A stretch of DNA of 64,000 bases from Flectonema sp. DT1601 (lineage: Eukaryota; Euglenozoa; Diplonemea; Diplonemida; Diplonemidae), in assembly GCA_964019425.1 (NCBI GenBank), contig OZ025832.1, forward strand, positions 620,001 to 684,000, in the 5' to 3' direction. Each line of letters begins with the position of its first letter. Position 1 is the first letter of the stretch. The position numbers were made by a program, and so were the translations under genes. Under the pieces are notes generated by a model. That model saw only the letters and a program-made list of their open reading frames with translations. It was not told where the DNA came from and did not search any database. Positions 27,851 through 47,726 of the stretch are shown here, piece by piece.

Positions 27851-28141
27851 GAAGAGTGAAAAGGAAGACAGAGTTGTATGTAAACTGTATGTAAATGTAA
27901 GAAGAAAGAAAAAACACGCTGGAAGTGGGAGTGCAACCATCAGCGCAAACACAACCACAAATATTGTTTTTTTTTCCTTTTTCTTTTCTTCGCTTCGGCG
28001 ACAGATATGGTAGGACCTAGAAAACCGGCCCAAAACTTGTGTTGCAGTTTATCTTTTTAGCGCACACTCATGTAACATAAGGATCGCTGGTTCCGAGGGT
28101 TTGCTCTCCTGCCATACTTGCCTCTCACCTCCCTCAAAAAA
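27851..28141 (+). repeat. 285-bp direct repeat, left copy, flanking element B
   Basis: From GAAGAGTGAAAAGGAAGACA to CTCACCTCCCTC (27851-28135) plus As, this reads the same as 41750-42034, with equal length and no difference that I found. Left copy: immediately before the SL that starts element B. Right copy: immediately after the B poly(A). This is the arrangement of a target-site duplication. It contains no frame of note. Confidence 0.85.
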
Positions 28142-28180
28142 AACCAACGATTCTAAAGCTACAGTTTCTGTACTTTATTG
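28142..28180 (+). other. Spliced leader exon sequence at the 5' end of element B
   Basis: Thirty-nine bases from AACCAACG to ACAGTTTCTGTACTTTATTG, exactly the length of kinetoplastid and diplonemid SL exons. It is followed by TTTTTTCCCTCCC and not by a GT donor, and no snRNA-like downstream part exists, so it is not an SL RNA gene. In every later array unit the same TTTTTTCCCTCCC follows CTTCTTCACAG, an acceptor AG. The junction is thus that of a trans-spliced mRNA copied into DNA. Confidence 0.92.
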
Positions 28181-31138
28181 TTTTTTCCCTCCCTCGCCCC
28201 ATCCCCGTCAGCGAGTAGGAAAGCGCAGCTAGGAATTTTTCCACGCAAGCGGATCCCACAACCCGACCACCCTTCCCCACGCTCACCCCATCCACCCTCC
28301 CCCACCCCAACAAAAGAAGAAAACGGCGGCAGCCACGTGACACACTCGTGTTCGTGTAGCGAAGCGTTTCGGCGACTTCGAAGACGACGACGACGACGAC
28401 GTAGAAGAGACGGTGTATGTGACTGACCTTCTTCTTCCTTATTTCTTTGTTTACTTTTGTTAATTACTTCCTCTTAATTTCATTCCTCTCTTAGATTGTT
28501 GTTTATTTGCTTATTTATTTGTTTGTTTATTTGTCTGTTTATCTGTCTGTATATTCTGTTACTATCTGTTATTTTGTTACATTTATCTGTCTACATTAGA
28601 GTACATTTTTGTTATTGTTAAATTAAAACATCTTCTTCACAGTTTTTTCCCTCCCTCGCCCCATCCCCGTCAGCGAGTAGGAAAGCGCAGCTAGGAATTT
28701 TTCCACGCAAGCGGATCCCACAACCCGACCACCCTTCCCCACGCTCACCCCATCCACCCTCCCCCACCCCAACAAAAGAAGAAAACGGCGGCAGCCACGT
28801 GACACACTCGTGTTCGTGTAGCGAAGCGTTTCGGCGACTTCGAAGACGACGACGACGACGACGTAGAAGAGACGGTGTATGTGACTGACCTTCTTCTTCC
28901 TTATTTCTTTGTTTACTTTTGTTAATTACTTCCTCTTAATTTCATTCCTCTCTTAGATTGTTGTTTATTTGCTTATTTATTTGTTTGTTTATTTGTCTGT
29001 TTATCTGTCTGTATATTCTGTTACTATCTGTTATTTTGTTACATTTATCTGTCTACATTAGAGTACATTTTTGTTATTGTTAAATTAAAACATCTTCTTC
29101 ACAGTTTTTTCCCTCCCTCGCCCCATCCCCGTCAGCGAGTAGGAAAGCGCAGCTAGGAATTTTTCCACGCAAGCGGATCCCACAACCCGACCACCCTTCC
29201 CCACGCTCACCCCATCCACCCTCCCCCACCCCAACAAAAGAAGAAAACGGCGGCAGCCACGTGACACACTCGTGTTCGTGTAGCGAAGCGTTTCGGCGAC
29301 TTCGAAGACGACGACGACGACGACGTAGAAGAGACGGTGTATGTGACTGACCTTCTTCTTCCTTATTTCTTTGTTTACTTTTGTTAATTACTTCCTCTTA
29401 ATTTCATTCCTCTCTTAGATTGTTGTTTATTTGCTTATTTATTTGTTTGTTTATTTGTCTGTTTATCTGTCTGTATATTCTGTTACTATCTGTTATTTTG
29501 TTACATTTATCTGTCTACATTAGAGTACATTTTTGTTATTGTTAAATTAAAACATCTTCTTCACAGTTTTTTCCCTCCCTCGCCCCATCCCCGTCAGCGA
29601 GTAGGAAAGCGCAGCTAGGAATTTTTCCACGCAAGCGGATCCCACAACCCGACCACCCTTCCCCACGCTCACCCCATCCACCCTCCCCCACCCCAACAAA
29701 AGAAGAAAACGGCGGCAGCCACGTGACACACTCGTGTTCGTGTAGCGAAGCGTTTCGGCGACTTCGAAGACGACGACGACGACGACGTAGAAGAGACGGT
29801 GTATGTGACTGACCTTCTTCTTCCTTATTTCTTTGTTTACTTTTGTTAATTACTTCCTCTTAATTTCATTCCTCTCTTAGATTGTTGTTTATTTGCTTAT
29901 TTATTTGTTTGTTTATTTGTCTGTTTATCTGTCTGTATATTCTGTTACTATCTGTTATTTTGTTACATTTATCTGTCTACATTAGAGTACATTTTTGTTA
30001 TTGTTAAATTAAAACATCTTCTTCACAGTTTTTTCCCTCCCTCGCCCCATCCCCGTCAGCGAGTAGGAAAGCGCAGCTAGGAATTTTTCCACGCAAGCGG
30101 ATCCCACAACCCGACCACCCTTCCCCACGCTCACCCCATCCACCCTCCCCCACCCCAACAAAAGAAGAAAACGGCGGCAGCCACGTGACACACTCGTGTT
30201 CGTGTAGCGAAGCGTTTCGGCGACTTCGAAGACGACGACGACGACGACGTAGAAGAGACGGTGTATGTGACTGACCTTCTTCTTCCTTATTTCTTTGTTT
30301 ACTTTTGTTAATTACTTCCTCTTAATTTCATTCCTCTCTTAGATTGTTGTTTATTTGCTTATTTATTTGTTTGTTTATTTGTCTGTTTATCTGTCTGTAT
30401 ATTCTGTTACTATCTGTTATTTTGTTACATTTATCTGTCTACATTAGAGTACATTTTTGTTATTGTTAAATTAAAACATCTTCTTCACAGTTTTTTCCCT
30501 CCCTCGCCCCATCCCCGTCAGCGAGTAGGAAAGCGCAGCTAGGAATTTTTCCACGCAAGCGGATCCCACAACCCGACCACCCTTCCCCACGCTCACCCCA
30601 TCCACCCTCCCCCACCCCAACAAAAGAAGAAAACGGCGGCAGCCACGTGACACACTCGTGTTCGTGTAGCGAAGCGTTTCGGCGACTTCGAAGACGACGA
30701 CGACGACGACGTAGAAGAGACGGTGTATGTGACTGACCTTCTTCTTCCTTATTTCTTTGTTTACTTTTGTTAATTACTTCCTCTTAATTTCATTCCTCTC
30801 TTAGATTGTTGTTTATTTGCTTATTTATTTGTTTGTTTATTTGTCTGTTTATCTGTCTGTATATTCTGTTACTATCTGTTATTTTGTTACATTTATCTGT
30901 CTACATTAGAGTACATTTTTGTTATTGTTAAATTAAAACATCTTCTTCACAGTTTTTTCCCTCCCTCGCCCCATCCCCGTCAGCGAGTAGGAAAGCGCAG
31001 CTAGGAATTTTTCCACGCAAGCGGATCCCACAACCCGACCACCCTTCCCCACGCTCACCCCATCCACCCTCCCCCACCCCAACAAAAGAAGAAAACGGCG
31101 GCAGCCACGTGACACACTCGTGTTCGTGTAGCGAAGCG
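28181..31138 (+). repeat. 462-bp tandem array, 6.4 units, each beginning after an SL acceptor
   Basis: Units start at 28181, 28643, 29105, 29567, 30029, 30491 and 30953; the last stops after 186 bp. They look identical throughout. Each has a GC-rich first half (CCCTCCCTCGCCCC..., an E-box-like CCACGTGAC, then a run of CGA triplets) and a T-rich second half (TTTATTTGTCTGTTTATCTG) ending in CATCTTCTTCACAG, a polypyrimidine tract plus AG. Sixty-codon frames recurring on the minus strand are by-products of the repeat. Possible roles: promoter/acceptor modules that replenish the 5' end at each cycle. Confidence 0.93.
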
Positions 31139-31194
31139 CTTAGCGCTTTAAAGTCTTTTAAGTCGCAGAAGTCGCCCCCGTCGCCCCCCGACCC

Positions 31195-31260
31195 CCACAG
31201 GGTATTGAACCCAGGTGGACCAGAAGACAGACGGTGACAAAAACCACTGCGCCAAAGTAT
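31195..31260 (-). other. tRNA-derived box A/box B sequence
   Basis: On the minus strand TGGCGCAGTGG (box A, 31244-31254) and GGGTTCAATACCC (box B, 31200-31212) stand 32 bases apart, the spacing of a tRNA-type Pol III promoter. The anticodon and acceptor stems do not pair well, so this is a pseudo-tRNA or SINE head. Confidence 0.5.
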
Positions 31261-31489
31261 ATTGTTGAAAAAAAAATTTTTTATTGTTTATTATATATAT
31301 TAATTAGGTCATATTTATTTAGAAGAATTTGGTATTACTTGTCGTTGTTTATTTAGAAAATACTAAGGAAGAAAGAGGAAGAAAAAAAAAAAAAAAAAAA
31401 AAAAGAAATTAGATTTTGCATAGGCATACTTGCAGAGGAGGAGATAAACGCGGGTCCTTCAGTAAGCTCTAGTACATCGGCGGGGTAGG

Positions 31490-31534
<45 letters not shown>

Positions 31535-31784
31535 CATCTATCTTCGGTCTACGAACGCTTTGAGTCGGCCAGCAGTCACAAACGGACATTGAAGGCGCGG
31601 ATAATTGTTGTTGCTGTGGAAACCTTGCTCTGCTGAAGAAGGAGTTGAAATTTTCCCCACCTGCATTCTGATTCGAGTTGTCTTCGAGAGTACTTTGCTT
31701 TGGTCAAAAAAAAGTTACTTATTCATCCAGCTCATACGTCCTTCTCATCTTTTCTGGAGACTGGACCGCTGGTGAACGCGCAAA

Positions 31785-32085
31785 CAGAACAAATTTTTTC
31801 TTTTGTTCTTCATTAAAACTACACTGAGACACGGTCTTCCGCAATACATCGCACGAACAGAACATATCCTTTCTTGTTCTCGTTTAAACACCGCTTTAAG
31901 ACAGCGAAAAGAACATATCCTTTTTTTTGTTCTTGTTTAAACTCTGCTTTGATACACGGTCTTCCGCTAGTCAGCGCGCGAGAAGAACATATCTTTTCTT
32001 GTTCTCGTTTAAACTTTGCTTTTAAGACCTGCAAACAGAGCATATCTTTTTTTTGTTCCTGTTAAAACTCTTTTTTAAGACAAAG
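31785..32085 (+). repeat. Degenerate 50-75-bp repeats
   Basis: Five related units share AGAACATATCCTTTCTTGTT, CTCGTTTAAACTCTGCTTT and, in three cases, ACACGGTCTTCCGC. Unit starts lie near 31787, 31857, 31908, 31982 and 32036. Length varies by loss of the second part. Confidence 0.7.
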
Positions 32086-32235
32086 CGTTACGAATCAGCC
32101 TGCGGGAGGAGAAGGAAGAACTCTCTCACTAGCTTTGTTTGGTGCCCGTGGTGGTGACTACCATTCTGCGTCGGAACTGTACGGGGGTGACCGCATAGAC
32201 AGAAGAGTTCGGAAAGCGGAGGATACGCGAGCCAG

Positions 32236-32279
<44 letters not shown>

Positions 32280-32390
32280 ACTCCACACACACGTACAGGG
32301 CTAACAAGGAGAAGAGCAGGTAAGTCGATTGTCTTTTTTCGGGTTCCATACACAAATCATCCACAGCGAAGAGAACGGAAAAGGAAGAGT

Positions 32391-32436
<46 letters not shown>

Positions 32437-32439
32437 AGA

Positions 32440-35400
32440 ATGGAGAAAACAATGTTACTGTGTGGGTACGTGCTGCTGTGGGCACTACTAAGTGGAACGA
32501 GGGCGCAACAGACGTCCGGAGTGGGTAAGCAGAGGTTAGCCCCAGTGCCAGGCGGATGGCACACCCCTCTTTTCACAACGCTGGACAAAGGCCCACTGTT
32601 TTCATCGCGCATCAGCCGACGCGTAACACGCCCGATCCCCCCGCACCCATTTATAACCCCCAACAGCTCAAACAGCCCCAACAATACGGCAAGCGGACGC
32701 GCTTTCCAACATGGACGAGAGGGGGTGTGGGTCCCGCGGAGGGGAACGGAAACGGCCGGGAACCGGGTGAGGCGAGACCACCCAAAGCCACCTCCAGACA
32801 AGGGAGGAAGGGAGCTCCTGAAGAGGGCGTCCCCGAAAGTGGCGTCCAAGGCGGCAAGGCGGCTGGAAAGGAGGAGGAGGAAGCTGCTGAAGGAACGGCA
32901 GGAGAGGTGGGAGCGGTGGGCGGGAGAGTTGGAGAAGTTCCACGCCAGGCGAGAGAGGTTCCGCGCGGAGACAGAGAGGCCAAGGAAGAACAAGGCGGAG
33001 ACACCGAGGAAGCGACGGGCAGGGCCCGAAAGGGACTGGACAAAGCCAGGAGGGCACAAGGCGGAGCCCAGACCATGGTATGCGAGGCCGTCAGACCTGG
33101 CAGGAGGAGGGCAAAGCAAGGAGAGGACGAAGTGCCCGGTGGTGGGGTGCAGCGTCTGGGTGAGGGGTGACCTAGAGTACCACTTCAAACAACACCTGAA
33201 GGGAGTGGTACCGGGGGAGGTAACGGCCCAGATGGCATCCGACAGACTCGGAAAGCAGATCTGCAAGGCCTGCGGGGAGCTGAGTACCGGATTGGTGCAC
33301 CAGACAGTGAGGTGTCGGGAGATGTTGGACCTCAAGGGACGGCTGGGGGTAGCGACGGGACCCACGCCGGAACTGGCAAGCCTGAAGTGCGAGGGAGCAA
33401 AAGTATTCCGGGTGATTGGGGATGGGAATTGCCTGTTCAGGAGTGTGTGCCAACTCCTAGAGACGCCAGAGGGGTGGAAGGGCAGACATGGAGAGCTCCG
33501 CAGGAGAACGGCAGGATACCTGACCAAGAACAGGGAAAGGTTCGAGGTCTTCTTCCAGGACGCGGACGCATTCGGAGTATATGCGAGGGCGTTGGAAGAG
33601 GATGGATGCTGGGGCGATGCATTGGCCCTACAGGTCATGGCAGAGGACCTACAGTGCCGCTTCGTCGTCGTGGTGAGGACGGAAACGCTGGTGGTGGAAG
33701 GGCCATCGGACCCGAAGCGGACGCTGGTCTTGACCCTGCAAAACGGGTGCCACTACGACCCAGTGGAGGCATCCGAGGACTGCGTCGCGCGGCTGCTACA
33801 GAGCGCCCGGAGGTTGGAGTTAGTGTCGCCAGGCCCGCTGTCGCAAGCAGCAGGAGGCGAGCCGGCAGTGCTGCAGACAGCCTCCCGACAGGCCCAGCTG
33901 CACGAGTGCCCCCAAGCGGAGTGCCCGAAACACAAGGGAGGCTTCGAGGAGTGGGCGGAGCTCCTAAGACACGTGGACGAGCACGCATTCAGTGGCAACC
34001 CGCTGACGCATGGACAGTTGGCGAGGCTAGGCCTCCGGGAATGTCCGGTGTGCTGTGGGATCATCGGGCAGGACCAGCCGATGCATCCGGGGTGCAGTGA
34101 GAAACTGCAGAAGGTCCAACTGGGGGACGTGTACACGGCGTTCCGGAAGCGGGTGCTGGAGAGCCAGAGCTTCCCCTCTTTGGAGGAAATAGCCAGCAGG
34201 AGGAGGCCGATAGCGAAGAAGCTGCCGGTGCCCCTGTTGCACCATTTGGGGCGAGCACTCAAGCTGGCGCTTGATCTAGTCGTGGAGCGGAACGATGAGT
34301 GGGCATGGAAGCTGCTCTTGATGCTCCCGACTTGTACACTGCGGAGGATACGGAGGGGGGGTAGGAGGTTGTCGACCAGCAATCTGACAGGGGCTGTCGA
34401 CGACCTGCAGGCATGGATTCGGGGGGATTTTGAGGGACTGTGGAAAGCGGCGGCCCCCCGCAAGGCGACGGGAAGGCCAGCAGTGAAAGAGGCGGGGCAA
34501 AAAGGAAGGAACGACAGGGCCACGTCGCTAGCGAGGGAGGGTTGCCTGTCACAGGCGATCTCGGCCCTAGACGCGCCGCCGCCAGCAGAACGAACCGAGA
34601 AGGTGCTGGAGCAGATGCGCACCCTACACCCGAGGGCGAGCGGACCCCCATCGGCCACGGCAGGGCAGGAGGTGCAGATAGCAGAGGTGGAGCTGCTAGC
34701 ATGCCTACGCTCCTTCCACAGGGGGTCGAGTGGAGGGCCTTCGGGCCTCGCGCCGCAACACCTGAAGGACGTGGTGGAGCGGGGTGAGGTGCCGGGGCTG
34801 GTAGCCTCGATCACGGAGGTGGTGAGGATTCTGGCGAACGGGAGGGCGCCGCGGGAAGTAGCGCCGCTGCTGGCGGGGGCGAACCTGACGGCGCTGGAGA
34901 AAGAAGGGAAGCCGGGGGAGCACCGGCCAGTCGCGGTGGGGGAAACATGGAGGCGGCTGGTGGCGAAGATCCTGTGCGGGGCATACAGGTCCCAGGCGAG
35001 GAGCTCGTTGCTAGAAGTGAGACAACTGGGAGTAGCGGTGTCGGGGGGAGTGGAGGCGGCGGTGCACACCCTGCATGAGTTCCGCGCGGAGCACGCGCTC
35101 TCGTCACAGAAAGTGTTCGTGAAGATAGACTTCTCGAACGCCTTCAACTGCGTGAAGAGGGGGGCGTTCCTGGATTCGACGAGGGATACCCTGCTGGAGA
35201 GCTGGGTCAGCTGGTGTTACGGAGCGCCGACGTGGTTGCTGTTTGGGGACGAGAGGCTGAGCTCGGAGGAGGGCGCTCAGCAGGGGGATCCGTTGGGTCC
35301 CTTGCTGTTCTCGCTGGCAATCAAGCCGGCGCTGCAGAAGGTGTTGGAGGCGAAGCCGGAGTTGGCGTGCTTCTACCTGGACGATGGGCTGGTGGCGGGC

Positions 35401-38400
35401 ACCCTGGAACAGGTAGACAAGGCCCTCCAAATCCTGCAGAAGGAGACGGCGGAGCTGGGGCTGACGCTGAGGCCGGACAAGTGCCAGACGCACGTGCTCG
35501 ACTCAGCCCAGAACACCCTGCCCTTGGGGTGGGGGTTGGAAGGGATGAGACCCCCACTGTACAACGGGGACTTCCTGGGGGCACCGTTCGGGACGGAGGA
35601 ACACTGCCAGGAGTTCGTCGACAGGAAGGTGGCGCAGCTGGAGAAGAAAGCGGAGCTGCTAGCAGACCTGCAGGACCGGCAGGTGGCCATGGTGCTCCTA
35701 AGGCAATGCATGGGCTTCTGCAAGGTGACCCACCTGATGCGATGCTGCACGCATGGGAAAATGGACACCTCGATGCGGAAGGTGGACGAGCTGATGAGGT
35801 CCACGGCGAGCCGAGTGTTGGGCCTGACACTGGAGGGGCCAAAGTGGATGCAAGCACAACTGCCGACCCGGATGGGGGGATTGGGGCTGCGGTCATGTGC
35901 AGAGCACAGGGGAGCAGCACTATTGGGATCCCTGGAATTAGTCCAAGGGGTGAGCAAGTCACTGTGGGAGGGGTTCAAGGGGGTGCTGATGCCAGCACTG
36001 AAGAAGGGGTTGAACCTCGCCCTCCCGGAGGAGCTAAGGATAGAAGAAGACGGGCCGGGGCCGAACCCCCAGAGGCTGTCCTCGGCGAAACTGGACCAGG
36101 TCAAGAGAGACTGCCTGCTGGCGGGGGCGAATGACCCGCGCGATAAAGGGAGGCTGCTCTCCCTGCGCATGGATAAGGCGAGCGCATGGCTGCAACAAGC
36201 AGATGAAGAGTGCGCGATGGACCCAGAGACGTTCAGGATCGCATGTGGGATGCGATTGGGCGCAGCGCTGTTCGCGGAAGGGGCAGTATGCAGGATATGC
36301 TCAGGCCCACAGGATAGGCAGGGATACCATGCCTCAATCTGTATCAAAAACGGCCACGTGCACCAGCGACACGAGAGGGTGAAGGAGGAGTTCATCTCCA
36401 TCTTTAAGCAGGCGGGATTGCCGCTGCTGAGAGAACCCAGCCACCTACTGGGACCCAACAAGCAGAGACCGGGGGACTGGTACTGCCAAGAGGGGCTGAG
36501 GGAGGGGAGAGGCAGAGCCTTCGACATCACAGTGGTAAACCCGGGGAAAATTAAATTGTATAAAACCCCGGGGCAAGCCGCGAGAGAAGCAGAGTCCCTG
36601 AAAGGGAACAAGTACGCGGAGCAGTGCACGAAACACGGGATTAATTTCTCGACAATTGCGCTGGAAGCGTACGGAGGGATGGGACGGGAAGCAGTGGGAA
36701 CCCTGAAGAAGTTGGTGCAGATCTGCGCAACGAACTCGACGGTGCCACACCGGGAGATCGCGGGGGAGATGGCGAGGAGGATCTCGACATCGGTGGTAGT
36801 GGCGACGGCGGAAGCACTGAGAGCGAGGGAGGCGTCGGTGGCGATGGACTCAGTGAACCCATTGCCAAGGACGAAACCGCCGCCCGAGATGACGGAGAAG
36901 CCGACATCACAAGAGAGAGAACCAAGACCGAGAGCGGAAACGGAAGAGATCCAGCAGCCGGAAGTAATGCGACAGTCGGCAGGACCGCCCCCGACGATGA
37001 GAGGTTTGCCGAACATCGGGAACTCCTGCTACCTCAACGCGTCCGTACAGTGCCTGCTGAAGGGCACGGCACTGACACAAGTGCTGACGGGGAAGGAGGA
37101 AGTGGGGATGTCGGGCCTCCTGAGTGGAGTGGTCAAAGGGAGTGGGGAGTGCCTGGAGAAGCTGTCCGAGATGTTCGACCCGCTACAAGACAGGCGGCAG
37201 GGGGAGGTAGTAGGAACCCTGACGTCCATAGTAGACGCCCTGTTGGAGGAGAAGAAAGAGGTGTGCGAACCGTTGTTCTCGGCAGTACAGCTGAAACAGC
37301 TGGTCTGCACGGGATGTGCGGACGCCTCCGGATCGACGGATGAGTTGACGCTGATCCCACTGTGTGGCCGTACACCACAAGTGAGGCTTCAGCCGACGAA
37401 GGAGAGAGTCGAGCGGTCCTGCGAGAAGCTGTGCGGCAGCAATGAGGCCACGCTGGAAGAGAGTTTCGCCTCGCTCCCAAGCTCCTTGATCTTCCAGAGA
37501 GACAAGCAGGACACGCAAGGGTCCTTGGGATGGGAAGAGCGCTTCCAGGTGCAGGTCGGGGAGAGGGTGATGACGTACCAGCAAACGGGAGCGATCGCAC
37601 ACCTCGGGAGTGACAACGCGGGGCATTACGTGTCATACACGTGGGACGGAGTAGGCTGGCAGAAGCAAGACGACAAGGCAATAAGCCAAGTGTCGACAGA
37701 GGAGATCCACGGGACGAAACCAGTAGTAGTGGTCTACTCGAGGGTGGAGGGATCGACCCAAGAGGACGTCGGGGTGCCGGTGAGATGGATTCCGGTGGCG
37801 AACAAGGACCGGATGGAGGTACGCGAGGCACCGCCGTCGGAGGAGGACACCGCGGGGTACACGTCCAGGGAAGAGGCGGAGTGTGTCCTCCGGACGCGAG
37901 TAGTAGGGGGGCAGACGCAGCGCAAGCTGCTCTTACTGGTATCGAGCGTCTGGAACGCGGAGATGGAGAAGCTGGGGGCGGCAGCATGCCTGATACACAT
38001 GGGAACGCTCGACAGGAGGTTCACGTGGTCGGGCTGCCTACCGACATGGGACGAAGCGACTGCGGAGTACGTGGCAGCGCTGCTAGGGCTCAACGCGATC
38101 AGGGAGAGATCGCAACTGCTGGGGGGTGAGACACAGATCGAGGTGGTCACACCGCAGCAGGGGTGGGGAGTCGAGCAGCAGGAGGCGCTGAAGTTGGTAG
38201 CGCTCCCGTCGGTGATAGAACACCAGGTGACGGAAAGCTCACGAGGGGTGGAGAACCTGGCCCTCTGGGAAGCGGAATCGGCGGCATGGGACGAGCCGGT
38301 GGAACTCTCGGAGGACGGGCTCGACTACTTGGTGATCGAGCTGGAGATGAATCTGGGGCTGTCCCAATTGAGGGGAAAGGCGGTGGAACCGGATGAATCC

Positions 38401-40962
38401 CAGTCGCTCCCAGGAGGGTCGACGGCATCAGGCGAAGACAGACCACGAGCCGAAGCGCCAGCCCAGGTGGAAGCGCAGACGACGGAAGCACAAGGAGCGG
38501 AAGCAGTAGGGCTGAGAGACGAGCCAGCACAGGAAGTGGGACAACCCGAGGAAAAAGAGCCCCCATCCCCCGACCCCCCGTCGAAGGAGGAGAAGCTGTA
38601 TGCGGTGGCGGTGGGATGGAAACCGGGAGTGTATGCATCGTGGGAGGAGGCGAAGGCACAGACGGAAGGGTGCCCGAATGCGACACACCAGAGTTTCTCC
38701 TCCAGGAAGGAGGCGGACAGGTTCGTAGAGAGGTGGCAGCCGGAGACCAGGGAACCGACCCGGGCCACGGAGGGTGTCAGCCCACGTAAGTGGTACGCAG
38801 TGGCGAGGGGCAGGGCGGTAGGCCTGTTCCAATGCTGGAACGAGGCGAACTCGATGGTGTCAGGCTACGCGGCGGCGAGACACAAGAGTTTCGCAAGCAA
38901 GGGGGAGGCGGAGGGATACCTCCGAACCCACCTGCTGGGGGAGGTGGTTGGCGAAGTAGGGACGAGGTACACCTTGGTGTACGCATGCGAGGAAGACCCG
39001 GTAACGGGCCGTCTGGGGGCGGCGGCGAGCTGGTTGGACACACACCGTTTCGAGGTGTTGGGCACATGGTCAGCTGGCCTGCCAGCGGGAGACACACACT
39101 GGGGGCGATACTTCGCAGCCCTGGTGGGGCTGGTAGCGGCCAAGGCGTGTGGAGGCCCCGTCCCAGCGGAGGCATCCCTGCTGCTGCGAGGAAGCACGAC
39201 ACACTGGTCGACGGACCAGAGAGAGGTGCTGGAGGAGGCGGAGTTGATGGGGAGGCGTACGACGCTGGTGGAGATGCCAGAGAGGATGAGAACACACGCG
39301 ACGGAGGAGGCTGAAAAAGCGGCGAAGGAGGGCTCGACCTCAGTGACGGAAGCCGTGATGAAGGTTTTCACAGAGGGGGCAAAGAACTGCCTGGGACACG
39401 GGACACAGACGGGTCCCTTCACGGTGCGGTGGGAGGGAAGACAACTGCGTCTGGAACCCCAGTACACAGAAGAGGGGACGGGATCGTCAGGCGGCCGAGA
39501 GTCGGTGGAAGGAGAAGACGCGAGGGTAGAGGGCCGAGACGAGCAGAGCCCGGTCCCAACCCCGAAGGGGGCCGTGCAAAGGGTAGAGGCGGGAGTCCTG
39601 GAGTTGAGCTCGGAAGGGTCGGAGGGAGATGACGATAGATCATCCTCCCCAGCGACAGGGCAGGACGAAGGGAACGGTTCCATGTCGGGAGGCTCCTTGG
39701 GGAGTCCAGGGACGTCGGACATGGAAGTAGAAGAACAGACGGACGAAAGGGACCAGTCGGTAGACCCGTCGGCAGCAGAGACCTCAGGCGAAAACCATCA
39801 CCTGGCCGAGGACCTGCAAGCCGAGAAGGGGGACGAGCTGGACGAGACGTCCCACCACTCAGGAGAGCCACCGTCGTCAGACGGCATGGACGGAGTGGAG
39901 GGGTTGGAGGACCTGGAAGACTCACAGTCGGAGATGGAAGTCGACGGAGAAAATGTGACGGAAGGGTCAGTAGTCCAGTACGTCGAGGAGACGTCAGAGG
40001 ACGTGGTCCAGGTGGCAGAGTCGGACACAGAGGAGGAGGGATCGTCAGACTCCCAAATGACCATGACGGTCGATGAACAGGAATGGGAAGAGGGAGCGGC
40101 GCCCGAGGGGAACGCAGGTCAGATGGCCTGGATGCTGGGACTACACCCAGAAGGGGGGAACGCGGAAACACGACGGGAGGGCCAATCGGAGCCCCTTTCA
40201 AAGCTGGTGAACTCAGGCGAAACAAAACCAATGGCCGAGAGATCCAGTTTGGGGGCGAAGATGGGACCACGCGCAGTGGGTAGTGACGGGAGCGGGGAAG
40301 ACGCAGAGAGATCGCCGGGCACGGTGTCGACACCGAGCACGAGAGGGAGGACGAAGTACAGAAAGGGAATGGAGGAGGAGAGGGAGGAGTGTGTGTCGCC
40401 GAAGACAAATACGGGAAGGGGACGCACGAGAGGCCGGAAGGCAAAGACGGGGGCAAAGGGGGCCGGAAAGGAGGACCCAAGTCCGCAGGTGTTGCAGGCG
40501 GAAATGGGAGAGTCCACCCCGAGCTCAGGTGAACGGCAGGCGAGGAGGAGGTACAGGAAGGGAGAAGAGAGGGAGAGGATAGAGGTTCTCTCCCCAGACC
40601 CGAGCAGGAAAGCGAAGAGGAAGAGACGCAAGCAGAAGGAACCGGAGCCAGTGGAGGGCACCACGAGGGAACAGGCGCCGCGGAGTTACAACAGGAAACC
40701 CACACTGCGTCGGGTAGGTAAGGGAGACACACCCGACACAATGGGGTACGCACACGGGCCCCCGGGCTCCCTGACCTCGTTCACGGACGCGGGCGTACGC
40801 CCGGAGCCGGCGGAGCGAGACGGACAAGGTGTGGCAGGAGTAGAGTTGGTCACAAGGTCGTCGTCACAGAGTGAGAAAAGCACCCAAGGAGAGATGAGGG
40901 AGAGAGAAGGGGATCCAACACGAAGGGTCCTGGACTTCTCGTCGAAAGGGGGAAGGTGCTAG
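32440..40962 (+). CDS. Element B polyprotein: zinc fingers-OTU-RT-RLE-USP-HBD-RNase H-like
   Basis: A 2840-residue protein; ATG at 32440 is the first in frame after the A tract. In order: a hydrophobic start (MLLCGYVLLWALLSGTRA) like a signal peptide; C2H2 finger (231-253); OTU cysteine protease (323-445, Asp328-G-N-Cys331, His438 in HYDPV); a second C2H2-like finger (490-515); reverse transcriptase (about 750-1090: Asp897 in KIDFSNAF, QQGDPLGPLL, YLDD at 979-982); CCHC knuckle (about 1285-1310) and restriction-like endonuclease (Asp1346 in RPGDW, Asp1362 in GRAFDI); USP (1520-1765, Cys1530 in IGNSCYLNA, His1729 in GHYVSY, Asp1744/1745); RNase H-like fold (1829-1960); two hybrid-binding domains (2052-2098, 2117-2163); a second RNase H-like fold (2176-2300); a 500-residue acidic then basic tail. 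Both RNase H-like folds lack DEDD. GC-rich compared with host genes. Confidence 0.88.
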   Translation: MEKTMLLCGYVLLWALLSGTRAQQTSGVGKQRLAPVPGGWHTPLFTTLDKGPLFSSRISRRVTRPIPPHPFITPNSSNSPNNTASGRAFQHGREGVWVPRRGTETAGNRVRRDHPKPPPDKGGRELLKRASPKVASKAARRLERRRRKLLKERQERWERWAGELEKFHARRERFRAETERPRKNKAETPRKRRAGPERDWTKPGGHKAEPRPWYARPSDLAGGGQSKERTKCPVVGCSVWVRGDLEYHFKQHLKGVVPGEVTAQMASDRLGKQICKACGELSTGLVHQTVRCREMLDLKGRLGVATGPTPELASLKCEGAKVFRVIGDGNCLFRSVCQLLETPEGWKGRHGELRRRTAGYLTKNRERFEVFFQDADAFGVYARALEEDGCWGDALALQVMAEDLQCRFVVVVRTETLVVEGPSDPKRTLVLTLQNGCHYDPVEASEDCVARLLQSARRLELVSPGPLSQAAGGEPAVLQTASRQAQLHECPQAECPKHKGGFEEWAELLRHVDEHAFSGNPLTHGQLARLGLRECPVCCGIIGQDQPMHPGCSEKLQKVQLGDVYTAFRKRVLESQSFPSLEEIASRRRPIAKKLPVPLLHHLGRALKLALDLVVERNDEWAWKLLLMLPTCTLRRIRRGGRRLSTSNLTGAVDDLQAWIRGDFEGLWKAAAPRKATGRPAVKEAGQKGRNDRATSLAREGCLSQAISALDAPPPAERTEKVLEQMRTLHPRASGPPSATAGQEVQIAEVELLACLRSFHRGSSGGPSGLAPQHLKDVVERGEVPGLVASITEVVRILANGRAPREVAPLLAGANLTALEKEGKPGEHRPVAVGETWRRLVAKILCGAYRSQARSSLLEVRQLGVAVSGGVEAAVHTLHEFRAEHALSSQKVFVKIDFSNAFNCVKRGAFLDSTRDTLLESWVSWCYGAPTWLLFGDERLSSEEGAQQGDPLGPLLFSLAIKPALQKVLEAKPELACFYLDDGLVAGTLEQVDKALQILQKETAELGLTLRPDKCQTHVLDSAQNTLPLGWGLEGMRPPLYNGDFLGAPFGTEEHCQEFVDRKVAQLEKKAELLADLQDRQVAMVLLRQCMGFCKVTHLMRCCTHGKMDTSMRKVDELMRSTASRVLGLTLEGPKWMQAQLPTRMGGLGLRSCAEHRGAALLGSLELVQGVSKSLWEGFKGVLMPALKKGLNLALPEELRIEEDGPGPNPQRLSSAKLDQVKRDCLLAGANDPRDKGRLLSLRMDKASAWLQQADEECAMDPETFRIACGMRLGAALFAEGAVCRICSGPQDRQGYHASICIKNGHVHQRHERVKEEFISIFKQAGLPLLREPSHLLGPNKQRPGDWYCQEGLREGRGRAFDITVVNPGKIKLYKTPGQAAREAESLKGNKYAEQCTKHGINFSTIALEAYGGMGREAVGTLKKLVQICATNSTVPHREIAGEMARRISTSVVVATAEALRAREASVAMDSVNPLPRTKPPPEMTEKPTSQEREPRPRAETEEIQQPEVMRQSAGPPPTMRGLPNIGNSCYLNASVQCLLKGTALTQVLTGKEEVGMSGLLSGVVKGSGECLEKLSEMFDPLQDRRQGEVVGTLTSIVDALLEEKKEVCEPLFSAVQLKQLVCTGCADASGSTDELTLIPLCGRTPQVRLQPTKERVERSCEKLCGSNEATLEESFASLPSSLIFQRDKQDTQGSLGWEERFQVQVGERVMTYQQTGAIAHLGSDNAGHYVSYTWDGVGWQKQDDKAISQVSTEEIHGTKPVVVVYSRVEGSTQEDVGVPVRWIPVANKDRMEVREAPPSEEDTAGYTSREEAECVLRTRVVGGQTQRKLLLLVSSVWNAEMEKLGAAACLIHMGTLDRRFTWSGCLPTWDEATAEYVAALLGLNAIRERSQLLGGETQIEVVTPQQGWGVEQQEALKLVALPSVIEHQVTESSRGVENLALWEAESAAWDEPVELSEDGLDYLVIELEMNLGLSQLRGKAVEPDESQSLPGGSTASGEDRPRAEAPAQVEAQTTEAQGAEAVGLRDEPAQEVGQPEEKEPPSPDPPSKEEKLYAVAVGWKPGVYASWEEAKAQTEGCPNATHQSFSSRKEADRFVERWQPETREPTRATEGVSPRKWYAVARGRAVGLFQCWNEANSMVSGYAAARHKSFASKGEAEGYLRTHLLGEVVGEVGTRYTLVYACEEDPVTGRLGAAASWLDTHRFEVLGTWSAGLPAGDTHWGRYFAALVGLVAAKACGGPVPAEASLLLRGSTTHWSTDQREVLEEAELMGRRTTLVEMPERMRTHATEEAEKAAKEGSTSVTEAVMKVFTEGAKNCLGHGTQTGPFTVRWEGRQLRLEPQYTEEGTGSSGGRESVEGEDARVEGRDEQSPVPTPKGAVQRVEAGVLELSSEGSEGDDDRSSSPATGQDEGNGSMSGGSLGSPGTSDMEVEEQTDERDQSVDPSAAETSGENHHLAEDLQAEKGDELDETSHHSGEPPSSDGMDGVEGLEDLEDSQSEMEVDGENVTEGSVVQYVEETSEDVVQVAESDTEEEGSSDSQMTMTVDEQEWEEGAAPEGNAGQMAWMLGLHPEGGNAETRREGQSEPLSKLVNSGETKPMAERSSLGAKMGPRAVGSDGSGEDAERSPGTVSTPSTRGRTKYRKGMEEEREECVSPKTNTGRGRTRGRKAKTGAKGAGKEDPSPQVLQAEMGESTPSSGERQARRRYRKGEERERIEVLSPDPSRKAKRKRRKQKEPEPVEGTTREQAPRSYNRKPTLRRVGKGDTPDTMGYAHGPPGSLTSFTDAGVRPEPAERDGQGVAGVELVTRSSSQSEKSTQGEMREREGDPTRRVLDFSSKGGRC

Positions 40963-41693
40963 GGACTCCACGAAGGAGGTCTCAAGAGTCGAGGAAAAAA
41001 CAGAGCCAAGACCCCAGAGCCAACCCAAAACACATGGTAGAGGACGAGGGAGAACAAGAGCGGGAGCGAGGTTAGAAACGTGACCAAAGCCCCCGCGAAG
41101 CAGGAGACACAACCTGCAACCAGACCCCCCCCAAAAAAAAAAACCCCGGTCAACGAGGCAAACTCGGACCAAAACATGCTTTTCACCCCCCCCCCAGGAA
41201 ACACCGACCAGTGGAGCCAAAGGCCACACACATATTATAAAAATCAAAGGCCGCCCCCCAACCCAAGAAAAGGATGAAAAACTTTCAAGCGAAAAAACTT
41301 GACGTCCGTGCGCCCCAGAGATCAAAGGACGGACGACTCACACCCCCTTCTTTCGCCCCATTTTATTTACTGGTACAGCGACAAATGTAAAGCTGGGTAG
41401 ACGACGAATTATTCTTTGTGCACAGAGACAAGGGATCCATGAGAACAAAGGATCAAGAGAAGAAGTGCACATTCCCCCTTCCCAAACCCAGAAACATGAG
41501 AACTCATTAAATTGAAGGGTCATGTCTTTTCAAGTCGAAAAATGCTTAAATGCAAAAGAAGACTGTCGTCCCCAGCTCGCGGGTTTTCCCTGTCGCTGTA
41601 TGTCGAGACAACGATCAGAGTCAGAAGAAGGATTGTACTATTAACAGTATAATGAAAAAGGACAAAGAGAGTAGTTTCCATTTTATCTTCCCG

Positions 41694-41749
<56 letters not shown>
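40963..41749 (+). other. Element B 3' UTR and poly(A) tail
   Basis: After the TAG stop, 731 nt of non-coding sequence with C and A runs near 41126-41145 and 41190, then 56 As (41694-41749). The tail length and its position directly before the right 285-bp repeat mark the 3' end of the inserted RNA copy. Confidence 0.75.
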
Positions 41750-41751
<2 letters not shown>

Positions 41752-42029
41752 AGAGTGAAAAGGAAGACAGAGTTGTATGTAAACTGTATGTAAATGTAAG
41801 AAGAAAGAAAAAACACGCTGGAAGTGGGAGTGCAACCATCAGCGCAAACACAACCACAAATATTGTTTTTTTTTCCTTTTTCTTTTCTTCGCTTCGGCGA
41901 CAGATATGGTAGGACCTAGAAAACCGGCCCAAAACTTGTGTTGCAGTTTATCTTTTTAGCGCACACTCATGTAACATAAGGATCGCTGGTTCCGAGGGTT
42001 TGCTCTCCTGCCATACTTGCCTCTCACCT

Positions 42030-42064
<35 letters not shown>
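41750..42064 (+). repeat. 285-bp direct repeat, right copy, with A30
   Basis: Same sequence as 27851-28135, here running on into 30 As (42035-42064) that abut the 3' end of element C. The A run shows what the uninterrupted target looked like: the left copy keeps only about six to eight of these As before the SL. Confidence 0.85.
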
Positions 42065-42066
<2 letters not shown>

Positions 42067-42103
42067 ATAACAAATTGATATTGGCGACTACATGTCACCT
42101 ACT

Positions 42104-45100
42104 TTACTTCCAAAGTCTAAGGTTAGATGTCTGTTCCATCCACCTTATGATCAACGCGAGTGATGGAAGCCACGCCAAAGTGAAGAGAGCTTCAAGGTTA
42201 GGAATTTCGTTGGCAATAATAAGTTCTCGATCGCGATCCCACTTGCCGGTCAGTGTTGAGAAGCCCAGGATTTTGAACCTGGCCGAGTCGAGTTTGGGAG
42301 ATTGACATCCCTGCAGCAGGTGAACCTGTGAGGACGGTTCGCCACAAAATGGGCAGTCGATCGTCTTGCGCCAGTTCTGAATTAGCGGGTGACATCCTGT
42401 CCGGAAGTTCGCTATCCGTATCTCGTCGGCTCTTTCCATCCCAGGAGGGTATTTAACGGAACGGCCTCTGATGAGGTGTTTGTAGCAGGTGTAACCACTC
42501 ACGTTAAGCAGATCCTTTTTGATGCAGCGCTTAACATGTGATGATCGCGAGAAGTAAGTGCCTTTGACTAGCACAGGTCGGATGTTCTTGTTGTGCGCTG
42601 CTTCCTTTGCAAGCGCGTCAACTTCATCGTGAAACTCGATTCCAATGTGCGAGGGGATGAATTGCAAATGCACTTTCATTTCACACATGCGCAGGTATTC
42701 CAGTATCTTCAAGGACTCAGTATTCTTCTGTCTGCACCTTCCACCCAGCAGTTCATCCAGAAGGGATTTTGAGTCCGTGAATATCCTCACAGATTTCATT
42801 GAAGTATCTTTGCTAAACACCGTTTTCAGATGTCTAGCCGCGTTCTTCAGAGCATGTTGTTCAGTCCTATAGCTGCAGTCAGCTTGATAAAGCCTAGACG
42901 CGTATGCAGATCGAAGGCCGCTACGTGACTTGGCAATATGAGCCGCACCGGCCGCGCCGGAAGCAGAGTAAGAACCATCGCAGTTGATTACCATGTCGAC
43001 AGGAGGTAACGTTCCAATGTACGACATGAATTTTTCTTTGTCCACCGCAGGGTTCGCGGACTTCGGAAATCCGCAGCTGTTGCTAATCCTAAGGTTCGTC
43101 GGAGATACCCAGGGTTCCATCGAGTCAGGCTGCACTAAGCACTGGCTTTCACGCTGACTATCAGTGCCAGGGATTAGGCCAGCCCAGTAGCTTTGTGTTG
43201 AGGCGAGTCTGTTTGTATTAGGTATCCAAGTCATGGCTTTATACCTGTAGTACGCAATTTTTGTCTGCTTTTCAATCTGACGTTTAAAAGGATACATGTC
43301 AGACTCCCACAACAGTAACTCTCTTGGCGTACACTTGCTGCATCCAGTAACCAGTCTGGCGACCTTCCTCAGTTCGAAGTCGATGCTGTCAACGCTGCTG
43401 CTTATCAGCCAACCAAAACTGTCAAGCGCATACGAGATTCTCGCGGTTATATAAAGGTTCTTAACCATGTTAAGAGTCTTGTAGTCCAGTTCGTACGGCT
43501 GGAGGCACTGCAGAAGTGATATCCCCCTCTTTAATTCTTCGTGAATCTTGCCTACTTGTTTGTGGAAGGTGAGCCTGTCGTCGATGTGAACTCCGAGGTA
43601 TTTTACTGAGTCGACTATCGGTAACAGAAAGGCAGTTTTGAATATTGCTCTCACAACCATAATGCTGTCCTCACGAACGACGTATTGCAGCATCAAGTTG
43701 TCGAGTTCTTCTTGTGTCTTGATTGGGATTCCTCCAATTTCAAGAATCGTTTCGCCACTTTGAAGCATGGGTCTGGGTGATTTGAGATTGATATGATTCT
43801 CGATGTCACCATAGTCAAGTTTAAGCATGCGTTCCTCAACAGATCTAGAGAAAAGCAGTTCGCGATTACACGTATCGTTTAGTACTATGCCCTTCGAGCG
43901 AACATTCATCTTAAGCGCACAGGTTTTGGAGACCGATAAGGCCATGTCGTTTTCAAAACACCATTGATCCACTTTGTCGAGTACTAATTGAGCATTCGAA
44001 AGAGCTTCTTCCATGTTTGATCCTGACACTACACAGGCTGTGTCATCAGCATACAGAGCAGACGTCGTTGTTTCCTTCTCCAGTTCCAAAATCTTGCAGA
44101 GGTCATCAACGTAGATAAGATAGAGAAGAGGACCCAGGATCGATCCCTGGGGAACCCCCTTAGCCAGAGTACGGAATTCGCTAAAATGACCATTTGCTTC
44201 AACTCTAACCTTCCTGTTTGTAAGAAAGTCTGTGATCCATCTGATAATAACATTCGGAACACCCATCTTTACTAATTTTAATATAAGTATCTTATGGTTG
44301 ATCCTGTCAAACGCAGCAGTAAAGTCGAATGACAAGAACACTGATCTCTTTTCTTCCATGTGGCTCCTTACGATAGCATCCACTAGAACGGTGATCTGCT
44401 CGCAGGTATTTCTCCCCTTTCTGAATCCAGCCTGTAGTGGGCTGAGCGACGAATGTTTTGTGAGCCAGTGCATGAGTCGGTCATACACGAGCCTCTCCGC
44501 AAGTTTCCCAACAACCGAGGTGAGCGTAATGGGTCTGAAACTCTTCAGCTCATTTCGAGGTTTTCCAGCCTTGAACATAGGCTTGATTAAACCTTGTTTC
44601 CACTGGTACGGTACTTTTGAAGTCTTCCAGGAAGTGTTAATAATTCTCAAGAGGTATTCCACTGTTGCCGGAGTGAAGTTTTTGATCATCTCATTGTGAA
44701 CTCCATCAGGTCCTGCAGCCTTGCGGGTCTTCAGGTTCTTAATCGCAGCTTTAATTTCAGCCATTGTGAAATCACAGCAAATATCTATTTCATTATCACC
44801 TTCTGAGAGTGCAGGGGCCTCTAGCGATAATATTTCCGATTTCGAGACAAACAGGTCCAAGAATGCTGATGGGAGATCGCAGTCAGAGATATTGTTGACA
44901 CCGATATCCTTACCAGCATCTTGCTGCAGTTCTTTGATCTTCTTAAACGCAAAGGCAAAGTTGTTACCCTTGTCAAGTTGATCACGTAGGTGGACACCCT
45001 TCGATTTGGTAGAATCGGGAGTTGACGTCTTCCACTTTCGTCTCCGTTTTCCTTTGAAAAGGAGACGTCGACGAATGAATTTAGCCGCCACTTCATGCAG

Positions 45101-46015
45101 TATGTTGTTAAAGAGCTTGGCATTCGCAGTTGCATCATCGGAGAGTCTTGATTTTCTAATTCTCTTTTCGAGCATGGTCCCAAAGCAGTTCCAGTCCGTA
45201 GACTTGAAGTCCCATACAACGCGTTTCTTCGAACCTATCGTGGCCCGTGCAAGTTGGCACATGGGATCCAGTACGGTGTAGAGAGGTCGATGATCTGACC
45301 CATGTTTATTATCTTCTTCAATTGCACTAAATTCTTCAAGAACCATCGAGTTTGAAAAGAATACTACATCTGGCGAGGTACCACCCCCCGGGACGTCAGG
45401 AAAAGGCCTTGTGATTGACCCCATCTTGTTAGCAACCAGTAGATCATTTTGAGCTGCCCATTCATGTAAAGTTGAACCTGCTCTCGTCGATTTAAGTGAC
45501 CACACCGGATGATGGGCATTAAAGTCACCCGCGACGATTGCTTTCGTTGAGACTGGAAGATCTGACTCTCTGATCATGCATCCCGGGGGAGCATAAACAT
45601 TGATGATGTCAATCTTTCCACCTATGTTGACCTTCACGACCTCGACATCATTTAAGTGTGGCGGAAGCTCCATGTTCAAACGCTGCTGAGTGTGGCATTT
45701 TTTCACCATAGAAATAACCCCTCCACCTCGTGTTGCCCTATCATTCCGATAGGTGAAATAGTCCGTGTGCGAAATTACATCATTCGTCCAAGTCTCCTGT
45801 AGGCACAGTACGTCAGGCGCATAGGCATTTAGCAGCTTGTGAATATAAGCGCCTTTGTTCCCCATCGATCGACAGTTCCAGCTCAGTAGAGATATGAGAG
45901 GGTTGTCAGGGCCAGGGTTGCGTTCGACGTCGCCTGCCTTTAGCAGCAGTTCACGAGCCGTATCCTTTTCCACAAGTGAGTTGGTCGGATTGAGTTCATC
46001 CTCATCGTCATCTAG
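42104..46015 (-). CDS. Element C ORF2: 2A peptide, APE endonuclease, reverse transcriptase, RNase H
   Basis: The frame continues ORF1's own frame directly after its UGA and runs 1,303 codons (LDDDEDELNPTNS...). No Met occurs before the endonuclease motif LSWNCRS, so no AUG can start a complete ORF2. Residues below count from Val at 45973. The 2A motif LLLKAGDVERNPGP is at 9-22, where ribosomes would skip between Gly and Pro. APE endonuclease: NCRS, LQETW, AGDFNAHHPVW, SPDVVF and GSDHRPL. RT: FDFTAAFDR, PQGSILGPLL and YADD near 643. RNase H: Asp near 999 in CDGSYS, EQHALK, FTDSKS and HDEVDALAKEA, all four catalytic residues apparently kept. The C-terminal CPFCGEP...VHLLQGC is a CCHC knuckle. 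Confidence 0.9.
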   Translation of the reverse strand, partial: LDDDEDELNPTNSLVEKDTARELLLKAGDVERNPGPDNPLISLLSWNCRSMGNKGAYIHKLLNAYAPDVLCLQETWTNDVISHTDYFTYRNDRATRGGGVISMVKKCHTQQRLNMELPPHLNDVEVVKVNIGGKIDIINVYAPPGCMIRESDLPVSTKAIVAGDFNAHHPVWSLKSTRAGSTLHEWAAQNDLLVANKMGSITRPFPDVPGGGTSPDVVFFSNSMVLEEFSAIEEDNKHGSDHRPLYTVLDPMCQLARATIGSKKRVVWDFKSTDWNCFGTMLEKRIRKSRLSDDATANAKLFNNILHEVAAKFIRRRLLFKGKRRRKWKTSTPDSTKSKGVHLRDQLDKGNNFAFAFKKIKELQQDAGKDIGVNNISDCDLPSAFLDLFVSKSEILSLEAPALSEGDNEIDICCDFTMAEIKAAIKNLKTRKAAGPDGVHNEMIKNFTPATVEYLLRIINTSWKTSKVPYQWKQGLIKPMFKAGKPRNELKSFRPITLTSVVGKLAERLVYDRLMHWLTKHSSLSPLQAGFRKGRNTCEQITVLVDAIVRSHMEEKRSVFLSFDFTAAFDRINHKILILKLVKMGVPNVIIRWITDFLTNRKVRVEANGHFSEFRTLAKGVPQGSILGPLLYLIYVDDLCKILELEKETTTSALYADDTACVVSGSNMEEALSNAQLVLDKVDQWCFENDMALSVSKTCALKMNVRSKGIVLNDTCNRELLFSRSVEERMLKLDYGDIENHINLKSPRPMLQSGETILEIGGIPIKTQEELDNLMLQYVVREDSIMVVRAIFKTAFLLPIVDSVKYLGVHIDDRLTFHKQVGKIHEELKRGISLLQCLQPYELDYKTLNMVKNLYITARISYALDSFGWLISSSVDSIDFELRKVARLVTGCSKCTPRELLLWESDMYPFKRQIEKQTKIAYYRYKAMTWIPNTNRLASTQSYWAGLIPGTDSQRESQCLVQPDSMEPWVSPTNLRISNSCGFPKSANPAVDKEKFMSYIGTLPPVDMVINCDGSYSASGAAGAAHIAKSRSGLRSAYASRLYQADCSYRTEQHALKNAARHLKTVFSKDTSMKSVRIFTDSKSLLDELLGGRCRQKNTESLKILEYLRMCEMKVHLQFIPSHIGIEFHDEVDALAKEAAHNKNIRPVLVKGTYFSRSSHVKRCIKKDLLNVSGYTCYKHLIRGRSVKYPPGMERADEIRIANFRTGCHPLIQNWRKTIDCPFCGEPSSQVHLLQGCQSPKLDSARFKILGFSTLTGKWDRDRELIIANEIPNLEALFTLAWLPSLALIIRWMEQTSNLRLWK
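45908..45949 (-). other. 2A ribosome-skipping sequence
   Basis: Encodes LLLKAGDVERNPGP, matching the D-x-E-x-N-P-G-P consensus with the usual hydrophobic stretch before it. It would release ORF1 plus a short tail from ORF2 during translation of a readthrough product. 2A at the head of LINE proteins is established for trypanosome L1Tc and for several animal LINEs. Confidence 0.88.
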
Positions 46016-46018
46016 TCA
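46010..46018 (-). promoter_or_regulatory. Leaky stop codon UGA-CUA-G between ORF1 and ORF2
   Basis: The minus strand reads AAC TGA CTA GAT. UGA followed by CUAG is the best-known readthrough context (alphavirus-type and mammalian programmed readthrough). The acidic codons on both sides (SNDSDFDLN before, LDDDEDE after) continue as if one protein, and ORF2 has no AUG of its own. Confidence 0.75.
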
Positions 46019-47668: not shown

Positions 47669-47726
47669 AATTGCTTTTTCCTGTGAAACGTACCCACTGA
47701 TTCTTACCAATATTAGGTTGCGAAAT

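Follow-up and report, generated by a model that had tools for sequence, protein, structure and literature searches.

The window analysed here, 64,000 nucleotides of the Flectonema sp. DT1601 genome (contig OZ025832.1, positions 620,001 to 684,000), carries a non-long-terminal-repeat (non-LTR) retrotransposon whose single open reading frame (ORF) is predicted to encode two different deubiquitinase-type protease domains, OTU and USP, together with a reverse transcriptase (RT) and a restriction-like endonuclease (RLE). We think it fairly probable that this is a recently active element resembling the R2 group, that it is copied from a trans-spliced template, and that OTU and USP most likely strip ubiquitin from the element's own ribonucleoprotein (RNP), or act at the target. 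A first-pass annotation of the sequence had proposed a non-LTR retrotransposon with both protease types, which the domains, the genomic copies and an R2-like structural model support. The coordinates it gave, 32440 to 40962, hold for the ORF but not for the whole element, which spans about 28144 to 41749. It recognized the domains of the ORF but overlooked that the element starts with a spliced leader (SL), carries tandem units and ends in poly(A), as well as the other families and the exchange of USP and OTU among relatives.

Positions 32440–40962 (forward strand, as for all features of the element) form one ORF of 2840 codons with no internal stop, confirming the annotated frame, which also recurs in the genomic copies. 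The frame stays open 5′ of 32440, up to a TTG at 32329; 32440 is the putative start codon, and residues 1–22 (32440–32505) look, by eye, hydrophobic and signal-peptide-like. A Pfam scan of the protein (threshold E ≤ 1), the check that the annotation had called for, returned four families, each above its cut-off: Cauli_VI (2.5e-27, in two stretches), RVT_1 (7.5e-17), OTU (1.9e-12, residues 327–413) and UCH (2.7e-11, residues 1521–1766). The motifs picked out by the annotation (DGNC, HYDPV, YLDD, GNSC, GHYVSY and DD) were all found where it had placed them.

The OTU protease domain (33403–33774, residues 322–445) holds C331 in DGNC and H438 in HYDPV and matches OTUD3 among Protein Data Bank (PDB) sequences (1.8e-10); the profile match and the catalytic Cys and His place it, by prediction, in the OTU class. 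The USP (UCH) domain (37000–37737, residues 1521–1766) has C1530 in GNSC and H1729 in GHYVSY, followed by D1744/D1745, and its PDB sequence matches are USPs (best 8.3e-07). In a model of the C-terminal part (predicted local distance difference test score, pLDDT, 48.9 overall and fair over the USP only), the best Foldseek matches of the USP part are USPs, with USP46 at the top (4.8e-15). With its Cys box, His box, Asp and a modelled USP fold that is fair in this part only, the domain is a predicted member of the USP class.

The RT (34900–35496, residues 821–1019; D897, YLDD at 979–982) gave PDB sequence matches to R2 proteins (2.3e-06). It is followed in the same ORF by a CCHC knuckle and a PD-(D/E)XK-like endonuclease core (36289–36612, residues 1284–1391; D1346, D1362, K1388), which is the layout of the R2 group. 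The RLE named in the annotation had no Pfam match at E ≤ 1, yet it is supported by conservation in 20 aligned proteins, where C1284, C1287, H1297 and C1301 of the knuckle never vary, nor do H1311 and D1362, while conservation of D1346 and K1388 is at least 90%. An AlphaFold2 model of the RT–endonuclease half (residues 741–1453; mean pLDDT 89.8) supports it as well, its best seven PDB matches all being R2 retrotransposon proteins.

Two Cauli_VI stretches (38593–38724 and 38788–38919) correspond to two RNase H1-type hybrid-binding domains, and this part, at its second domain, matches RNase H1 among PDB sequences (2.9e-06). A catalytic RNase H domain had no Pfam match at E ≤ 1; the flanks of the hybrid-binding domains were modelled mostly at pLDDT below 50, and the idea of degenerate RNase H folds around these domains was dropped as unsupported at that confidence. 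Ulp1, the protease of NeSL elements, was absent among the Pfam families at E ≤ 1. The OTU is flanked by a CCHC-type Cys/His motif on its 5′ side (33262–33315, residues 275–292) and a C2H2-type zinc-finger motif on its 3′ side (33907–33984, residues 490–515), both recognized by pattern and with no Pfam match.

A search of the genome (89.5 Mb in 92 contigs) gave at least 16 matches to the window protein, at least 14 of them full-length (the window's included) and at least 2 partial. The 14 full-length copies cover the whole protein at 99–100% identity and are stop-free; the count is a lower bound because a search with the RT–endonuclease region reveals further partial copies. To judge from these copies, the window family is a mobile element with young members that has been active recently. 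A public protein, P0002 (ENA record), is 99% identical to the window protein and lacks the OTU because its record begins further downstream. Among the matches listed, a whole-protein search gave only P0002 and the distant P0003, and a search with residues 1500–2340 only the same family.

Selection was assessed by the ratio of non-synonymous to synonymous change per site (pN/pS) within the family alone, because synonymous sites are near saturation between families. Distinct changes in the 15 other copies were counted against the window copy, with L024 omitted past residue 2205. The OTU shows 8 synonymous changes against 4 that are non-synonymous (pN/pS 0.15, p 0.0018) and the USP 11 and 8 (0.23, p 0.0015), these p values being only rough because mutation bias is unmodelled and the copies share ancestry. 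The corresponding values are 11 and 3 for the RT (0.09), 23 and 2 for the thumb–endonuclease region (residues 1061–1440; 0.03), 10 and 6 for the zinc-finger link (0.20), 46 and 45 for the C-terminal part with the hybrid-binding domains (0.31), 10 and 17 for the N-terminus (0.56) and 1 and 4 for one linker (1.3). The OTU and USP domains look to be under purifying selection, and the catalytic positions checked in both are identical in all 16 copies. Because their catalytic residues are intact and the domains appear selected, both proteases are probably active deubiquitinases.

We favour a role in protecting the RNP, in which OTU and USP would remove ubiquitin from it and so let it escape ubiquitin-dependent turnover. 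This role is ranked first because the proteases share a protein with the RT and a large RNP would be an easy ubiquitin target. Alternatively, ubiquitin would be removed from chromatin and repair factors at the insertion site, histones or repair/replication factors being de-ubiquitinated so that target-primed reverse transcription finishes. The fusion of the proteases to RT and nuclease in one protein would suit such an action, and Bao et al. proposed a repair role for transposon OTU/Ulp1 domains (PMC2836005). Sequence does not pick the substrate, however, since USP46, USP35, USP21, USP12, USP1 and others score alike, and we regard action at the insertion site as unlikely but far from negligible. 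We give distinctly less weight to the idea that one or both domains cleave the giant protein into separate parts, as a processing protease would, or only bind ubiquitin. A single frame of 2840 residues with several enzymatic parts might call for processing, and viral polymerase-linked OTUs are among the weak sequence matches; against this, R2 works as one protein, and the conserved catalytic residues and selected-looking domains speak against mere binding, an argument that leaves self-cleavage unaffected.

The element begins with an exact SL exon (28144–28180), identical to the exon of the SL RNA genes, and the A at 28143 may be the leader's first base. A repeat search of window positions 28000–46000 and repeat comparison placed behind it six mutually identical tandem units of 462 bp (28181–30952), each with a terminal pyrimidine-rich tract and AG (a putative trans-splice acceptor), then a partial seventh unit (30953–31140) and a 5′ untranslated region (UTR; 31141–32439) with four A tracts (31382, 31490, 32236 and 32394). 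The SL exon runs directly into TTTTTTCCCTCC, the start of the unit, whereas the later units read CTTCTTCACAG ahead of the same start; genome-wide, there are 15 exact SL–unit junctions vs. 236 AG–unit boundaries. Because the junction between SL and unit start falls precisely at the place of the AG in later units, the DNA copy is probably derived from a trans-spliced mRNA, a template that we infer strongly for the integrated DNA. All 27 dispersed SLs that were read (those at the head of the list together with those looked for at the window family, not a random sample) have an A before CCAACG, and the base ahead of that A varies outside A tracts. With the A constant and the preceding base variable, the leader probably starts A-CCAACG and the complementary DNA (cDNA) reached its first base.

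An SL joined to the start of a window-family unit lies upstream of 11 of the 16 copies (the window, C6, C17, C27, C54 near 310 kb, C1, both on C52, both on C23 and C54 near 540 kb). The SL-to-ORF distance is 1.9–2.0 kb in six of them; two more have 2.2 and 2.7 kb, another two 4.3 kb and the last 13.5 kb. Expressed in units, six copies fit one, C17 and the window five more and C27 twenty-five more. This stretch was read unbroken only in the window and C6. Unit length is 462 bp in the window, 463 bp on C2 and 456 bp in most of C24, and because it differs between loci, growth of the arrays probably takes place once the element has inserted. Inside a locus the units of an array are all or nearly all alike, whereas arrays of different loci differ; at C2:1787030–1810699, one SL is followed by 51 AG–unit boundaries at an exact spacing of 463 bp.

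Site-specific insertion into SL RNA genes, as in SLACS, CRE and CZAR, could also place an SL at the 5′ end without a trans-spliced template, and a close D. papillatum relative is annotated as 'Retrotransposable element SLACS'. SL genes read TTAA-exon-GTACAG, a form taken by 620 of the 702 exact SL exons in the genome, but the DNA upstream of the 11 SL-bearing copies is an A tract or unrelated. Moreover, the exon is complete and abuts a repeat unit at its AG boundary, and 22 downstream stretches of 14 copies contain no SL exon. With SL-gene sequence around none of the 11 SL junctions, we reject CRE/SLACS-like insertion for the copies read and consider it highly improbable as the origin of the 5′ SL. 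A 5′ HDV-like ribozyme, for which the L1Tc ribozymes are a precedent (PMC4035085), was also rejected, as Rfam gave no match at E ≤ 1 in 28100–32500.

The SL genes form arrays, spaced at about 610 bp in one and about 623 bp in another. 5S rRNA lies in the 623-bp array, and Rfam found only 5S in the array unit scanned (623 bp); the SL–5S unit of D. papillatum additionally holds U2 (PMC10161547). The SL sequence, compared with a diplonemid SL, suggests a diplonemid host, as do the SL–5S arrays and the closest named relatives of the protein; given the U2 difference, it is probably a species other than D. papillatum. One SL array (C20:1257188–1291365) has recurring spacings of 1695 vs. 610 bp, with an extra segment of 1085 bp at several places. 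At L035 (C6 near 114949, reverse strand), an SL exon retains the SL-gene upstream sequence TTTTTAAGGTTAA and foreign sequence takes the place of the GTACAG intron, which may reflect a CRE-like insertion right at the boundary of exon and intron.

Sequences of other repeats also start with the SL (L026–L034 and L037), and three fixed junctions are each common to two loci: SL joined to ATCTCGATCC in L027 and L037, to GGACCACACA in L028 and L032, and to TTCTCACACC in L033 and L034. SL-capped 5′ ends therefore look general among repeats in this genome. The repeat at L039 has a full SL and then a partial SL from CTACAG, the join lying behind the AG of AAAG, a pattern expected from repeated cycles; L030 has a full SL followed by a partial SL with no AG at the join.

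At the other end of the element, the 3′ UTR (40963–41693) terminates in TTTATCTTCCCG and is followed by a poly(A) tract (41694–41749). The same terminus occurs in eight of nine other copies read, the ninth (C52a) having CTTCCTT. A long poly(A) is present in eight of the nine (seven after TTTATCTTCCCG, C52a after CTTCCTT), beyond which the flanks diverge; C23a has only an 8-A run, directly ahead of the next element's SL. These poly(A)/UTR 3′ ends, together with two 5′-truncated copies, point to non-LTR integration. Since 9 of the 11 read SLs follow an A run (C1 and C54b do not) and the DNA ahead of them often belongs to another element's tail, the usual target appears to be A-rich DNA.

In the window itself, the element lies between identical segments of 293 bp (27851–28143, the 3′ end of an older element, and 41750–42042), which may have arisen as a long duplication peculiar to this site or may be the 3′ ends of two neighbours. 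As a general target-site duplication this was rejected, none of the nine other insertions compared showing one; left flanks in that comparison were 130–148 bases in six of nine and the right side of C23a is another element, so that a long duplication could escape there. A long local flank match at C23b is its own 3′ end meeting that of its neighbour. To the right in the window, on the reverse strand (42104–47710), is a different non-LTR element, with a 1289-residue frame containing an APE-type endonuclease and RT and, beside it, a 564-residue frame with no Pfam match.

OTU, RT–RLE, UCH and Cauli_VI also occur in one open frame and in the same order at 13 loci of three further families in this genome. 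Family B, 63% identical in the RT–RLE, has five such loci (C29, C17 near 960–966 kb, C67, C45 and C46), family D six (C17 near 653 kb, C18, C21, C24, C25 near 736 kb and C28; 34%) and family E two (C25 near 490 kb and C63; 34%), while many further copies of the other families are fragments with a subset of the domains. Families B, D and E, like D. papillatum P0005, retain the USP catalytic Cys and His, and families B and D retain those of the OTU. Within family B, C45 and C46 have RT scores nearly equal to those of C29, C17 and C67 but differing USP scores, a pattern that an exchange of front and rear halves would leave. The window insertion itself sits in the tail of a family D element, whose ORF (24662–27736), apparently 5′-truncated, carries a USP and two hybrid-binding domains and shares its C-terminus with P0012.

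No point supports either misassembly, by which, as the annotation itself had suggested, the USP half might have been joined on from a separate gene, or an accidental fusion of an RT gene with host USP or OTU genes. This explanation is scarcely credible, because there are 14 full-length copies (13 of them outside the window) and 2 partial ones, four families in the genome have the same order, and relatives elsewhere carry a USP or an OTU at the C-terminus.

A protein search with residues 760–1430 gave 37 proteins at E ≤ 1e-5. With home-made profiles (E ≤ 1), an N-terminal OTU-like domain was called in P0001, P0007, P0009, P0010, P0012 and P0014 and a C-terminal one in P0007, P0008, P0009, P0010, P0014 and P0016; Pfam's own OTU model, applied to the set other than P0007, P0008 and P0016, was passed only by the OTUs of P0001 and P0012 and the N-terminal one of P0009. 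A C-terminal USP is present in P0001, P0002, P0005, P0012 and P0013, with a second, weak USP-like stretch in P0012 (E 0.049 and 0.26), and P0033 has its USP N-terminal to the RT. P0009 is foreign to this genome, as its identity is at most 34%. Because relatives differ in whether a USP or an OTU sits at the C-terminus, the second deubiquitinase seems to be an exchangeable feature of the lineage rather than a single-copy accident.

In a midpoint-rooted RT–RLE tree of 36 rows (39 proteins less 3 omitted because of the length of their segment; the tree held no reference CRE, R2, R4, NeSL or HERO sequences), the OTU/USP-bearing relatives other than P0033 form one group of 11, with a Shimodaira–Hasegawa-like approximate likelihood ratio test (SH-aLRT) value of 99 and a bootstrap of 89, under the customary 95. 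The window family stands beside D. papillatum proteins (96/90), and six end branches are long. Two relatives from JGI, P0020 and P0033, combine an MLLE domain with RT, one of the two also having a USP.

We propose the following cycle for the element. Transcription would occur by read-through or from the 5′ units, and the host would trans-splice its leader onto one AG site. The capped, polyadenylated mRNA would be translated and bound by its product; the RNP would then nick A-rich DNA, often in the poly(A) tails of other elements, prime on the poly(A) and copy through to the leader's first base. The hybrid-binding domains may hold the RNA–cDNA duplex, while OTU and USP would keep the RNP free of ubiquitin. 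More tentatively, and at somewhat less than even confidence, we suggest that a deubiquitinating RNP may be shared by a whole clade of R2-group-like retrotransposons, with members in this protist, in D. papillatum and in one or more further genomes. It would combine an ancestral N-terminal OTU with an exchangeable C-terminal USP or OTU, both needed for transposition; the host SL would renew the 5′ end at each cycle, and the tandem units would serve as a reserve of trans-splice acceptors.

Several points weigh against these proposals. The SL-to-ORF distances of C23b and C54b fit no whole number of units, and 5 of the 16 copies have no read SL: C22 and C71 are 5′-truncated at an internal A tract (about 32236–32242), C25 is masked with Ns in this region, C30:1070461 lacks the first 274 residues, and C30:1096134 has an SL 17.2 kb upstream that fits 33 extra units and is assigned by distance only. 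The pN/pS test takes no account of mutation bias or of the ancestry that the copies share, and the OTU of family E is known from its profile match alone. Finally, we infer the substrates and purpose of OTU and USP entirely, and our preference for RNP protection is one of plausibility, to which action at the target is a serious rival.

Like R2 (PDB 8gh6, 9dou, 9nl2, 9nl3 and 8ibw), the window element has RT, CCHC and RLE in one ORF. R2 inserts in 28S genes, whereas the window element lies at A tracts in most copies read, starts with the SL and ends in poly(A); R2 is not known to carry an OTU, a USP or a hybrid-binding domain. It also resembles the trypanosomatid CRE clade (SLACS, CZAR and CRE1/2), likewise from Euglenozoa, in combining RT and RLE with zinc fingers, poly(A) and internal repeats (PMC12278014), although CRE elements insert in SL RNA genes and the window element carries the leader as its own 5′ end. 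The text of that paper has no occurrence of protease, OTU or ubiquitin. D. papillatum P0005 (2324 residues, annotated as SLACS) shares RT and a C-terminal USP with the window protein but has no OTU or hybrid-binding match, its record beginning only 126 residues ahead of the RT match.

Single ubiquitin-family proteases are known from other mobile elements. The RLE-type elements NeSL and Utopia-1_TSP have one N-terminal Ulp1-like cysteine protease, present in nematode NeSL though not in every member (PMC4640811), compared with the OTU and USP of the window element. Ginger1 transposases have OTU or Ulp1, not both in one, and a Trichomonas protein joins a peptidase C19 domain to a transposase domain (PMC2836005); Helentrons carry OTU (PMC4067079). 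Ginger1 and the OTU-bearing Helitrons/Helentrons thus share with our element an OTU or Ulp1 domain but are DNA transposons. In dinoflagellates, SL-tagged retrogenes are integrated cDNAs that keep the trans-spliced leader, sometimes with truncated leaders stacked (PMC12014239); those are retrocopies of host genes, whereas the window leader caps an element with its own RT. The annotation had known of no described element with both an OTU and a USP, and we likewise found no RLE element with OTU and USP, nor an SL-capped non-LTR element, in the literature searched, which was largely without subscription papers and is not proof of absence.

If these proposals are right, the possession of several deubiquitinases extends from viruses and bacterial pathogens to selfish elements, and the control of retrotransposition by ubiquitin would be strong enough for a single protein to have been selected to hold two erasers. 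The 5′ SL would be a genomic record of the template, marking integrated cDNA as copied to the first base of a trans-spliced mRNA. Copies that end in the SL make full-length reverse transcription and renewal of the 5′ end testable in a trans-splicing host.

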